Shown piece after piece: positions 1 through 10,050 of a stretch of DNA of 20,509 nucleotides. The stretch is from positions 1 to 20,509 of the IMG/VR virus record IMGVR_UViG_3300006736_000124. The stretch is one strand, 5' to 3'. The notes below the pieces were generated by a model. That model was not told the origin of the DNA. It did not search any database and saw only the letters and a program-made list of their open reading frames with translations. This DNA comes from a virus. The number at the start of each line of letters is the position of its first letter. Position 1 is the first letter of the stretch. Position numbers and translations under genes: made by a program.

Positions 1-171
1 ACTTTCACTGAGCACCTCTAGTTTTTCCGCCGCTTCAAGTGTCGCGCGGGCGATGCGCTGAGTTGACCAAAGCACCATCACCATGCCTAGCCGCTCTGAT
101 CTCGACACCAGCCCAATACCCAACCACAATAGGGTCGGGTCCAGCGGCTTTACTAAATCACCGACTTGCAC
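1..171 (-). CDS. VGDLV-family array protein, 3' end cut by window edge
   Basis: The reading frame opens with GTG at 169-171 and is still open at base 1, giving 57 visible codons. The product begins MQVGDLVKPLD, has a hydrophobic middle (GIGLVSRSER, MVMVLWS) and reaches AEKLEVLSES at the window edge, which matches the head, body and tail pattern of the other array members. GGAG lies 7 nt upstream inside the end of the preceding gene, and the two genes overlap by 14 nt. The bases at the edge (GTGAAAGT) look like the start of yet another member. Function unknown; a small SH3/KOW-like barrel is my inference from the pattern of short strands. Confidence 0.8.
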   Translation of the reverse strand, partial: MQVGDLVKPLDPTLLWLGIGLVSRSERLGMVMVLWSTQRIARATLEAAEKLEVLSES

Positions 172-334
172 TGACCAACTCCAGATAAGGGTTGTCATCA
201 GCCGACGCCCATCCCATGCTCACGCCTGTAACGACATCAATGAGGTTCACGCCAGGTCTGCCGTGCTTGTCCTCTGTCGCGCTGACGACCATGTAGAGTG
301 TGCCAAACATCTTTACTAAGCTGCCGACCTTCAC
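158..334 (-). CDS. VGDLV-family array protein (58 aa)
   Basis: GTG-started frame of 58 codons. The product begins MKVGSLVKMFG, has the strand-like segments TLYMVVSATED and GVNLIDVV, and ends YLELVSASR. Its last 14 nt are shared with the next gene, so AGT GCA AGT CGG TGA (SASR-stop) is also GTG CAA GTC GGT GA (MQVGD). Upstream is a 64-nt gap with a good promoter and the Shine-Dalgarno (SD) sequence AGAGGGAT, so this gene probably heads a transcript. The residue after G in the head motif is S rather than D. Biochemical role unknown. Confidence 0.78.
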   Translation of the reverse strand: MKVGSLVKMFGTLYMVVSATEDKHGRPGVNLIDVVTGVSMGWASADDNPYLELVSASR

Positions 335-364
335 TGTATCCCTCTAGTTTCGTTCTCGCCATCT

Positions 365-392
365 ATTATAGCCACAGAATCCGAGAAGTAAA
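365..392 (-). promoter_or_regulatory. Promoter TTTACT-N16-TATAAT
   Basis: A -35-like TTTACT (387-392) and a perfect TATAAT (365-370) are separated by 16 nt, in one of the few gaps of the array. The start codon of the next gene lies 30 nt beyond the -10 box, leaving room for a leader with an SD. The same layout recurs in other gaps of this window. Confidence 0.65.
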
Positions 393-398
393 ATGCGA

Positions 399-587
399 TT
401 ATTTTACGTGGCTAACGTCCCTGATACGCATGTAAGACATATTTACTTCTCCACTCCACAACACTTTGTGTCCCATATTCCCGCCATGCACGTAAGATTC
501 AACAACTACGCCAACTTTGCCCCTCCAGCGAGCATAGCACTTCAGCCTTTTGCCGTATGACGACAACTGCACTAAATCACCCGGCAC
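399..587 (-). CDS. VGDLV-family array protein (62 aa)
   Basis: GTG start, product MPGDLVQLSSYG followed by KVGVVVESYVHGG and HKVLWSGEV, the usual head, strand and VLW signature of this family. The tail (RIRDVSHVK) does not carry LEV..E.R, because no gene start overlaps it: a promoter gap follows. It overlaps the preceding gene by 11 nt rather than 14, since the head is MPGDL and the preceding tail is correspondingly SAG-stop. This supports the view that the family tail is set by the overlap. Function unknown. Confidence 0.78.
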   Translation of the reverse strand: MPGDLVQLSSYGKRLKCYARWRGKVGVVVESYVHGGNMGHKVLWSGEVNMSYMRIRDVSHVK

Positions 588-732
588 TTATCACCTCCAG
601 CAGCGCAACGCTGTCCCACTCTGCTTCGCAGTTTAGCCAGCCGATATACGCCGATCCTTCCCATGCGCCCTCGCCCATCTTGAGGACCAGGCCACGGAAT
701 CCGCGAAACTCAACTAAATCACCGATTTTCAC
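577..732 (-). CDS. VGDLV-family array protein (51 aa)
   Basis: GTG-started, 51 codons, one of the shortest members. It begins MKIGDLVEFRGFRG, continues with LVLKMGEGAW and AYIGWLNCEAEW, and ends LLEVISAG. GGAG of the upstream gene precedes the start, and the first 14 nt are shared with that gene's SENR-stop tail. The body keeps the strand, turn, strand and W pattern. No function is known. Confidence 0.75.
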   Translation of the reverse strand: MKIGDLVEFRGFRGLVLKMGEGAWEGSAYIGWLNCEAEWDSVALLEVISAG

Positions 733-943
733 TTATCAACTCCAGCTTATTTGCAGTCTCCCAACTAGCATCGTCGCGGGTATGAGAAACCCACTTTACT
801 AGCACTGAGTCTTGCGACGGACGGGAATAAGACATAGATCTATAGCTTATCTTTATCACCACCCCAAAGGCGCAGTTGTCTTTTTTCTGTTGTTCAGTCC
901 AGGTCGATCCTGGGTCGTATCTTACTAAATCACCCACCTTCAT
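719..943 (-). CDS. VGDLV-family array protein (74 aa)
   Basis: I place the start at ATG 941-943, preceded by GGAGGTCGTCA; a longer in-frame extension to 1042 would run through the upstream gene and lacks an SD. The product begins MKVGDLVRYDPGS, has CAFGVVIKISYRS and DSVLVKWVSH, and ends NKLELISENR. Both ends overlap neighbours by 14 nt. Longer than the average member because of a loop between the first two predicted strands (TWTEQQKKDN). Function unknown. Confidence 0.8.
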   Translation of the reverse strand: MKVGDLVRYDPGSTWTEQQKKDNCAFGVVIKISYRSMSYSRPSQDSVLVKWVSHTRDDASWETANKLELISENR

Positions 944-8816: not shown

Positions 8817-8819
8817 TTT

Positions 8820-9086
8820 TTAACCCACCTCTGGCTCGCCGCCACTAACCAAATCAATAACAACGCTCTTGATTTCTTTTGCGGTTTTATAAGTTTGCCA
8901 AGAATATTCTAAAGGTTTGGGGTTTACCGTGCCCCAGGTCCATAAGCAATATTTCCATTTGTTATTTACTTTTTTGATCTCGGCCATTATTTCTTTCTCT
9001 TCAACAACATACTCTCCCCATAAAACATAGTGACCGGACGACTCACGCTTCCACTTAAAATCGTCACGTAATGATTTAGCTTTCAT
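8820..9086 (-). CDS. Hypothetical phage protein (88 aa)
   Basis: ATG with GGGGGTTATAA upstream. The product MKAKSLRDDFKWKRESS is followed by HYVLWGEYVVEEKEIMAEI, KWKYCLWTWGTVNP and YSWQTYKTAKEIK; it is rich in W, Y and K and looks like a small alpha/beta protein. The start overlaps the upstream gene by 11 nt (VINES-stop over MKAKS). It contributes GAGGTGG as SD for the tiny membrane gene. Function unknown. Confidence 0.7.
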   Translation of the reverse strand: MKAKSLRDDFKWKRESSGHYVLWGEYVVEEKEIMAEIKKVNNKWKYCLWTWGTVNPKPLEYSWQTYKTAKEIKSVVIDLVSGGEPEVG

Positions 9087-9333
9087 TTATAACCCCCGCC
9101 TCATCTTCCTCTCTCAACACACACCTAACATCTCCCTCTGTCTCGATCCACACGCGGGCACCACATGACAGGGGCTTGTCCGGGCTATAGATTACTTTGC
9201 ACGGCCCCTCGATAAGTACTTCATGGCAGTATGTGTTGTCCCTATAGGTTTTCACAGTTAGCACGGGCTCCCTATCTCCTGTCTTACGATTTGATTTGAT
9301 TTTATGCTGGTTGACGTGTATTCTTTTTTTCAA
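9076..9333 (-). CDS. Conserved phage protein, IHVNQH...PLSCGARVWIET type (85 aa)
   Basis: TTG start with AAGGA 6 nt upstream. The signatures IHVNQHKIKSNRK, REPVLTVKTY, YCHEVLIEGP and KPLSCGARVWIETEG are those of a small protein I have seen repeatedly in phage genomes, always without assigned function. Conserved C and H residues (YCH, SCGA) might bind metal. Predicted to be beta-rich. It separates the upper array segment from the genes that follow it. Confidence 0.8.
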   Translation of the reverse strand: MKKRIHVNQHKIKSNRKTGDREPVLTVKTYRDNTYCHEVLIEGPCKVIYSPDKPLSCGARVWIETEGDVRCVLREEDEAGVINES

Positions 9334-9351
9334 CGTTATTCCTTATATCCA

Positions 9352-9537
9352 CTAACTGCCTTTACTTTCACTTATCACTCTCAAGTCATTTTTTGACGCC
9401 CACAGTTTTGCACCGCAGCGCCATGCAACCTCAAAGTCAGCATCCGGTCCGGGGCGCCAGCTGTAGGATTTCCGAATAATAACTCCTACATTTCCAGCCG
9501 TTCCCCACTTGCTCTTTACTAAATCACCTACTCTCAC
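9352..9537 (-). CDS. VGDLV-family array protein (61 aa)
   Basis: GTG-started: MRVGDLVKSKWGTAG, NVGVIIRKSYS, DFEVAWRCGAKLWAS, tail DLRVISESKGS. The tail reads past the usual stop because the downstream start-like sequence GTGAAAGTA is followed by AAGGCA instead of GGTGA. That sequence would give only an 11-codon frame, so it marks a junction whose next gene has been lost or replaced. Function unknown. Confidence 0.8.
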   Translation of the reverse strand: MRVGDLVKSKWGTAGNVGVIIRKSYSWRPGPDADFEVAWRCGAKLWASKNDLRVISESKGS

Positions 9538-9745
9538 TTACCACCTCTAAACTAAAATCACATTCCCAGCCGTTGGAGCATGTGCTCCCGCCGTGCCATG
9601 AGTATGGCTTAAGCAGAGGATAAAACCAATGAACCAAAAATTTGCCATGAATATTATCCCTCGACAGCGATCCTTCAGAGATTATCAAACCCCTCCAGTA
9701 CGTTCGACCCCCGTGAGTCATTCTCACCATATCACCTACTTTCAC
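9524..9745 (-). CDS. VGDLV-family array protein (73 aa)
   Basis: GTG-started: MKVGDMVRMTHGGRT, WRGLIISEGSLS, KFLVHWFYPLL, then CDFSLEVVSESR. Head M replaces L in GDLV. It is coupled on both sides by 14-nt overlaps; the upstream partner is the cassette that contains tRNA-Ala. A long loop (KPYSWHGGSTCSNGWE) precedes the tail. Function unknown. Confidence 0.8.
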   Translation of the reverse strand: MKVGDMVRMTHGGRTYWRGLIISEGSLSRDNIHGKFLVHWFYPLLKPYSWHGGSTCSNGWECDFSLEVVSESR

Positions 9746-9875
9746 TTATGACCTCTAAACTAAATATGGTGGAGCCGATGGGAATCGAACCCACGACCTC
9801 TTGAATGCCATTCAAGCGCTCTCCCAACTGAGCTACGGCCCCGCGAGTCCTTCTTTCCATATCACCGACTTTCAC
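9732..9875 (-). CDS. Array cassette ORF (47 codons) containing tRNA-Ala in frame
   Basis: An open frame starts GTG (MKVGDMERRT) and ends SLEVISESR-TGA, with 14-nt overlaps with both neighbours exactly like a normal array gene. Its middle, from codon 12 to codon 37, is the complete tRNA-Ala gene (GAVAQLGERLNGIQEVVGSI in translation). The tRNA thus replaces the body of a VGDLV gene without breaking the frame. Translation may be accidental or may serve to carry ribosomes to the next gene; a functional protein is unlikely. Confidence 0.5.
   Translation of the reverse strand: MKVGDMERRTRGAVAQLGERLNGIQEVVGSIPIGSTIFSLEVISESR
9767..9842 (-). tRNA. tRNA-Ala (GGC anticodon)
   Basis: A 76-nt tRNA on the minus strand with encoded CCA. 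The acceptor GGGGCCG pairs with CGGCTCC (one G-T pair), the D arm is GCTC-AGTTGGGA-GAGC, the anticodon stem CTTGA/TCAAG carries loop ATGGCAT, and the T arm is GTGGG-TTCGATT-CCCAT. It would read GCC codons. It lies inside an array cassette and must be processed from the polycistronic transcript, as no promoter is seen next to it. Confidence 0.96.
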
Positions 9876-10050
9876 TTATCACCTCCCAATGATCAGACAA
9901 GCTACGCGTTTTTTTGCCAGAACTAAGTATGACTTTTATAGCATTGTAGCTTACACTCAACACTATCCCTGTTTCGTGGGTGAACTCTTTGCGGTCTTGT
10001 AGTCTCCACCACATAACATCCTTCATCTTCACTAAATCGCCAGTTTTCAT
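9862..10050 (-). CDS. VGDLV-family array protein (62 aa)
   Basis: ATG with GAGGAATA upstream: MKTGDLVKMKDVMWW, TGIVLSVSYN, AIKVILSSGKKTRSL, tail DHWEVISESR. It is the first gene of the overlapping run that contains tRNA-Ala. The start overlaps the stop of the upstream gene by one base (TAATG). The basic GKKTR turn before the tail is typical of the family. Function unknown. Confidence 0.8.
   Translation of the reverse strand: MKTGDLVKMKDVMWWRLQDRKEFTHETGIVLSVSYNAIKVILSSGKKTRSLSDHWEVISESR

Follow-up and report, generated by a model that had tools for sequence, protein, structure and literature searches.

A 14-nucleotide start/stop overlap as the probable joint for swapping whole genes in arrays of T4-like marine phages

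The IMG/VR virus record IMGVR_UViG_3300006736_000124 provides a stretch of 20,509 nucleotides, referred to here at its full length as the window, which harbours on its minus strand a tandem array of small genes, many of them opening with a VGD-type head such as MKVGD. Recomputation of every border in the window bears out the count of the original prediction: 15 minus-strand borders, spanning 9875 to 158, overlap by exactly 14 nucleotides (nt), and all the array genes concerned lie on this strand. Downstream of these borders stand 12 VGD-type heads and three others (MRVDEL, MKLIRD and MKLRK). The border at 6516-6529 is counted with an internal GTG start taken from the sequence. The prediction had each border joining two proteins; this stands except at two of the 15, which flank the open reading frame (ORF) 9875..9732, a tRNA-Ala gene. 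The bodies of the cassettes are unrelated to one another in DNA. The features of the array are as follows.

9862..10050, minus: VGD-family SH3-like gene, the array's first, MKTGDLVK...HWEVISESR
9862..9875, minus: 14-nt joint 1, GTGAAAGTCGGTGA, tail SESR / head MKVGDM of the tRNA cassette
9732..9875, minus: tRNA-body cassette, normal joint at both ends, head MKVGDM, tail LEVISESR
9767..9842, minus: tRNA-Ala (ggc) within the cassette
9732..9745, minus: 14-nt joint 2
9524..9745, minus: VGD-family gene, MKVGDMVRMTHGG...FSLEVVSESR
9524..9537, minus: 14-nt joint 3
9352..9537, minus: VGD-family gene, tail LRVISESKGS, no overlap after it; retains GTGAAAGT
6516..6529, minus: 14-nt joint 4, tail LEACKCASR / head MRVDEL (non-VGD)
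4790..4972, minus: VGD-like gene, MKDIKPEVGMLVRP...LEVVSASR
4790..4803, minus: 14-nt joint 5, tail SASR / head MQVGD
4612..4803, minus: VGD-family gene
4612..4625, minus: 14-nt joint 6
4452..4625, minus: VGD-family gene, shuffled cassette by comparison with locus L109
4452..4465, minus: 14-nt joint 7, tail NENR / head MKIGD
4295..4465, minus: VGD-family gene, shuffled cassette by comparison with locus L016
4115..4294, minus: VGD-family gene, subject of structure prediction
4115..4128, minus: 14-nt joint 8
3925..4128, minus: VGD-family gene, tail LEVME, then a 4-nt overlap
3740..3928, minus: VGD-family gene, then a 17-nt overlap with the GIY-YIG gene
3469..3756, minus: GIY-YIG domain gene, tail VNENR on a VGD head
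3469..3482, minus: 14-nt joint 9
3213..3482, minus: VGD-family gene, then a 4-nt overlap
3019..3216, minus: VGD-family gene, tail LEVVSEAC
2783..2968, minus: variant-head gene, MKPGNLV...LEIIS
2279..2292, minus: 14-nt joint 10, tail SETD / head MKLIRD
1984..2292, minus: MazG-like gene, named by eye, without a Pfam match
1714..1938, minus: VGD-family gene
1714..1727, minus: 14-nt joint 11
1575..1727, minus: VGD-family gene
1575..1588, minus: 14-nt joint 12, tail NEAA / head MKLRK
930..1130, minus: VGD-family gene, tail LEVVNEGG
930..943, minus: 14-nt joint 13
719..943, minus: VGD-family gene
719..732, minus: 14-nt joint 14
577..732, minus: VGD-family gene, tail ISAG, 11-nt overlap with the MPGDL head
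399..587, minus: MPGDL gene, tail DVSHVK, no overlap after it
158..333, minus: MKVGSLV gene, tail LELVSASR, GTG start at 333 taken from the sequence
158..171, minus: 14-nt joint 15
1..171, minus: VGD-family gene, truncated within another joint (LEVLSES...) where the window ends

In most joints of the window the overlap word is RTG AAR RTN GGT GA, which one frame back becomes (A)RT GAA ... CGG TGA and encodes S/N-E-S/N-R-stop. The dependence of tail on head that had been predicted is evident throughout: the tails SESR, SASR (before MQVGD), NENR or SENR (ATG or ATC), NEGG, NEAA and SETD vary with the head downstream, a second head codon CAA giving SASR, AAG giving EG and ATC giving NENR, and the remaining borders, of 0, 4, 11, 17 or 20 nt, come with other tails.

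The overlap was characterized across a comparison set of 165 viral loci (1.5 Mb), gathered by scans for the joint word and for the head among the matches listed, which contain 874 unique ORFs with a VGD-type head. Of about 455 borders between one VGD gene and the next, 369 show an overlap of exactly 14 nt, 49 one of 4 nt and 12 one of 1 nt, other values being rare. One subset of loci was selected by the joint itself; the subset gathered by the head only is a fair, context-free sample and yields, among the matches listed, 145 overlaps at 14 nt versus 30 at 4 nt. The GGT-GAY of the head carries a TGA in that frame, which as a rule leaves an overlapping upstream gene two possible ends, at 4 or 14 nt. 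To judge by these codons, the exact value of 14 is partly forced by GGTGAY, and the frame preference and the GGT codon are not: GGT, required once the 14-nt frame is in use, is found in 360 of 360 overlapped heads versus 54% of non-overlapped ones. Conservation of the joint DNA extends from -13 to +21 and falls sharply to near background on both sides. Shine-Dalgarno (SD) motifs accompany 88% of the 14-nt borders and 54% of non-overlapped heads, and over all loci GTG starts are found in 59% of overlapped heads and 8% of non-overlapped ones.

The constraint on the shared codons is also visible. A check for suppressed variation, which the original prediction had proposed, was run on heads with K as second residue: a third-base T in codon 3 would make W the last residue of the upstream protein, and it occurs in 5 of 292 overlapped heads versus 31 of 133 non-overlapped ones. 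The V codon in overlapped K heads is GTC in 206 cases and GTA in 29, although either gives a tail R; avoidance of W is therefore insufficient to account for it, and the bias points to a joint word inherited as DNA. Joint hexamers match in 51% of within-locus pairs, against 30% after shuffling (maximum 36% in 500 shuffles), and the longest exact run between joints of the same locus has a median of 13 nt and a maximum of 35.

The shared C-terminal motif LEV..SESR had been taken for a by-product of the overlap, a claim that holds for one part of the tail and fails for the other. A SE[SN]R-type tail ends 86% of array genes that precede a 14-nt VGD head versus 7% of those without a following start, and proteins of unrelated kinds, GIY-YIG and MazG-like, carry the endings ESR, NESR or NENR before a 14-nt-overlapping VGD head and mostly other endings elsewhere. 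The second codon of the preceding strand is GAG, part of the SD, in 282 of 362 overlapped tails; among the 28 terminal genes with the strand retained it is GAG in 7. Tails and codon usage together mark the GAG-coded E, the terminal ESR and the stop as by-products of the start and SD of the next gene. The hydrophobic core L-x-V-I-S is kept as protein, as judged from its persistence without an overlap and from its place as strand 5 of a predicted barrel: the pattern phi-x-[VIL][VIL][SN] stands near the end of 28 of 69 terminal genes without overlap, as compared with a mean of 1.1 and a maximum of 6 after shuffling, and with 3 in a control stretch. When LEV..SESR was looked for in such genes the strand was thus recovered; SESR was found in few, at contig ends or before a decayed or unrecognised head, and in none of them convincingly.

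The property that distinguishes these arrays is the turnover of neighbours at the joint. When homologous array genes of at least 70% amino acid identity are compared between loci, the downstream gene joined to them by 14 nt differs in 48 of 58 comparisons; for the non-array genes of these loci the next neighbour differs in 19 of 101, the comparisons being pairs that are not independent. Among 50 clusters of homologues, 44 have neighbours that are all different and 3 have neighbours that are all the same; the changes are spread over 39 clusters and 38 loci. Across the 14-nt word, DNA identity drops from about 0.85 to the background of 0.27. With a left-hand homologue identity is high to about +13 and at background from about +20; with a right-hand homologue it is at background up to -14, equal to that of random joints from -13 to -1, and high from +3. 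Positions -13 to -1 hence travel with the upstream gene and those from +15 onward with the downstream gene, and the break between homologous and background sides places the exchange point within the 14-nt overlap. Two genes of the window illustrate the pattern. The gene at 4452..4625 matches one in L109 at 78% DNA identity and has flanks at 33% and 31%; that at 4295..4465 has 71% identity to a gene of L016, with flanks at 39% and 37%, its downstream border being 0 nt versus 4 nt in L016, so that only the upstream border is a 14-nt joint in both. Clean cases of cassette replacement and of insertion were found among the loci, and of the 101 neighbour changes recorded at identities of at least 75%, 64 retain the 14-nt type on both sides. 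These comparisons make it probable that the 14-nt overlap is a recombination joint at which whole genes are swapped between phages.

Several observations weigh against this conclusion. In the remaining 37 of the 101 changes at least one side lacks the 14-nt type, so other routes exist besides the joint, and the pairs compared are not mutually independent. The longest exact match between joints of different phages has a median of 11 nt and a 90th percentile of 18 nt, which is below the length on which efficient homologous recombination usually depends. The contigs are for the most part assembled from metagenomes, and some joins in them could be chimeric; exchange is deduced from sequence comparison, and no recombination was seen in action. 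Among cultured phage records no match to the VGD family was obtained by tblastn or blastn.

The 37 changes are what would be expected from illegitimate recombination at random places followed by selection for intact genes, the classic phage mosaicism, and phage genomes are mosaic in general. Random joins would, however, spread the overlaps and gaps, yet most changes keep 14 nt on both sides, and neighbour changes are rare among the non-array genes of these loci; as an account of the arrays we regard it as rather unlikely. Pure translational coupling, after the coupling module of the original prediction and with the overlap kept only since termination 14 nt past the start feeds reinitiation at the embedded SD, is a little harder still to uphold. 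It would suit the enrichment of SD motifs at 14-nt joints and that of GTG starts, as though coupling made a weak start tolerable, and it can coexist with a recombination joint; it leaves unexplained the different neighbours of homologues, the ending of identity in the joint and the preference for GTC over GTA. Much less credible is a dedicated, integron-like site-specific system with the 14-nt word as its core site. Joints are precise, cassettes hold single genes and joint variants are alike within a locus, but neither a tyrosine recombinase or integrase (0 of 20) nor a serine recombinase (0 of 20) was found in 20 array-bearing records, several of them longer than 180 kb; the joint is accounted for as coding and initiation sequence, and no inverted repeat was seen at the joints by eye, no dedicated scan having been made.

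If the genes had duplicated in tandem and diverged within each phage, the junction being passed on vertically, this would account for the common head, tail and probably fold of the members and for the greater likeness of joints from the same locus. The gene orders nevertheless differ between loci at high identity, and there are 10 within-locus extra members against 121 clusters, which mostly span loci; within-genome duplication was rejected as the main source of cassettes, and the explanation as a whole is highly improbable. We give equally little credence to selection of the entire LEV..SESR tail as protein, for instance as a sorting or degradation tag. The strand L-x-V-I-S does persist without an overlap, and the avoidance of third-base T leaves R rather than W at the end; against this, the predicted strand stops short of the last three residues, and the tag was rejected since ESR is lost where the overlap is lost and gained by unrelated proteins, GIY-YIG and MazG-like, that precede a VGD head.

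Under the preferred explanation, a recombination joint, the region would be a gene-cassette array of a T4-like marine phage, a cassette extending from its own start codon to that of the following gene. Most cassettes would encode a small SH3-like (KOW-type) protein and a few hold other genes or a tRNA. The joint comprises an SD (GGAGG) lying in the codons of the last beta-strand (TTG GAG GTn), the start codon and the head RTG AAA GTC GGT GAT, whose GGTGA furnishes the stop of the upstream gene. As cassettes sit between different neighbours and identity ends in the overlap, each brings its own strand-plus-SD and leaves the neighbour's head intact. The joint holds stop, start and SD together, so that any crossover there would restore two intact frames and an initiation site, at which termination of the upstream gene may aid initiation; translational coupling of array neighbours is plausible, the anatomy of overlap and SD being compatible with it. 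General recombination of the UvsX type, or annealing, could carry out the exchange at the short common word, possibly assisted by joints of the same genome with their longer exact runs. This appears to be the most economical reading, with the short homology (median 11) as its weak point. The fuller proposal, that a start/stop overlap serves as crossover site for scarless joining of any cassettes, the VGD head, LEVIS strand and joint having evolved as one element, we consider evenly balanced.

The array-bearing contigs are T4-like by their gene content: outside the window's own 20.5-kb fragment, 17 of the 20 array-bearing records encode gp23 and 19 a RecA-type protein, which we take to be UvsX, as expected from T4 biology. 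The 20.5-kb window itself encodes HSP20, chaperonin, ClpP, IMPDH, Dam, DUF3310 and a dUTPase-like gene. Relatives of the window sought through its small heat-shock protein (sHSP) and a 192-amino-acid gene were not found, and a GroEL search led to two loci at about 50% identity that lack VGD genes. With one VGD gene as query a single distant relative was recovered, which does not enter the comparisons.

Integrons are tandem arrays of single-gene cassettes, each with a palindromic attC site, shuffled by an integrase (IntI). The phage arrays resemble them in the shuffling of single-gene cassettes, but adjacent reading frames overlap, they are not known to carry attC-like sites, and an integrase is missing from the 20 array-bearing records. 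Closer parallels exist among T4-type phages, in which promoter-early stem-loop (PeSL) cassettes were reportedly described by Arbiol et al. in 2010 and by Comeau et al. in 2014. According to a paper that cites this work, PeSLs are mobile regulatory cassettes that shuffle genes in these phages (PMC4503421). The likeness extends to the T4-like setting, the short repeats between small accessory genes and the modular shuffling; PeSLs, however, are promoter/terminator stem-loop motifs, whereas the array repeat is a coding overlap that holds SD, start and stop. The array joint (-13 to +21) is wholly coding and contains neither intergenic DNA nor a promoter, promoter-like elements being located at the array ends. 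The internal-protein loci of T-even phages are said by Repoila et al. (1994) to carry promoter-plus-leader repeats of about 70 bp. They share with the arrays a conserved N-terminal leader and flanking repeats around interchangeable small genes, but the array joint is about 34 bp, centred on the 14-nt start/stop overlap, and the proteins are SH3-like. Start-Associated Sequences (SAS) of cluster K mycobacteriophages are SD-containing repeats before small genes (PMC3203893). They are similar in that a conserved SD-containing word recurs just upstream of many small non-structural genes; they lie upstream of the start as a ribosome-binding site, and no frame overlap or joint role is described for them in the passages covered (PMC3203893). 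A partial literature search yielded no report of a start/stop overlap as recombination joint. Within the sources covered, shuffling via short repeats is already known in T4-type phages and the novelty would be the start/stop coding overlap as joint.

The VGD family itself gave no profile match above the curated cut-off, only weak scattered ones. A model of the protein encoded at 4115..4294, built from 87 sequences, is a five-strand small SH3-like barrel with a predicted local distance difference test score (pLDDT) of 88.7; its last strand is L52-S56 (LEVVS), and A57-S58-R59 lie outside it. The nearest structure is NusG 2xhc, with a template-modelling (TM) score of 0.75 by query length but a Foldseek E value of 0.2. 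Array proteins resemble the KOW and other SH3-like small barrels (NusG, Spt5, uL24) in predicted fold and in the VGD...G.V pattern, and differ from them in lacking a family match above the curated cut-off. Among the BFVD matches to the fold are numerous unnamed viral proteins whose accessions lie close together (A0A516M..., A0A516LB...), which suggests that one or two genomes hold many paralogues.

At the array ends a different element may take over the role of the head. Among 421 genes without a following VGD head, 60 have their stop codon inside a TTGAC-type -35 box, and 23 of these 60 ends have a -10 box (at most one mismatch, correct spacing) versus 4.7 expected; stop codons thus lie inside -35 boxes, so that the next gene or the next promoter can each supply the stop. 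At the array ends of many loci, L009, L031, L026 and L138 among them, a TTGACA-like -35 holds the last stop and is followed by a well-spaced TATATT or TATACT -10. A 52-nt gap recurs between sub-arrays in L004, L026, L029 and L031, and three of these loci (L004, L026 and L031) show promoter-like sequence after a gene with a ...KKP or KRP ending.

Some cassettes and neighbouring genes merit separate mention. The 47-amino-acid ORF at 9732-9875 was considered as a normal gene and rejected, its body being the tRNA-Ala gene 9767-9842; it is probably not a functional VGD protein. The 3' flank of this tRNA resembles the tail of the next gene (TTTAGTTTAGAGGT). The GTGAAAGT retained at the end of the gene 9352..9537 may be read as a decayed joint. 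The stand-alone GIY-YIG gene (3469-3756) inside the array has relatives in 12 other loci, of which two, in L051 and L010, likewise overlap a VGD head immediately downstream by 14 nt. Elsewhere in the window, phage-encoded HSP20, chaperonin (GroEL-type) and ClpP lie together in 10829-16771, and 16853-17551 encodes a 232-amino-acid acidic protein with repeated GEEEAGMP units and no PHROG match. When 84,980 genomes of bacteria and archaea were searched for the joint, the one match was L166 (PAQX01000001.1), a 34.9-kb contig of a Deltaproteobacteria metagenome-assembled genome that is perhaps a phage contig.

These findings bear on the open question of how phages swap their many small, transient genes without breaking the neighbours, since a single word of 14 nt appears to combine stop, start and crossover point. 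They account for a conserved C-terminal motif that might otherwise be taken for a protein tag, and they define a large unannotated SH3-like family in uncultured marine T4-like phages. With hundreds of joints and precise breakpoints, the arrays offer a clean test system; in the phages that harbour them they may serve as a rapidly renewed stock of small proteins of the early or accessory kind.

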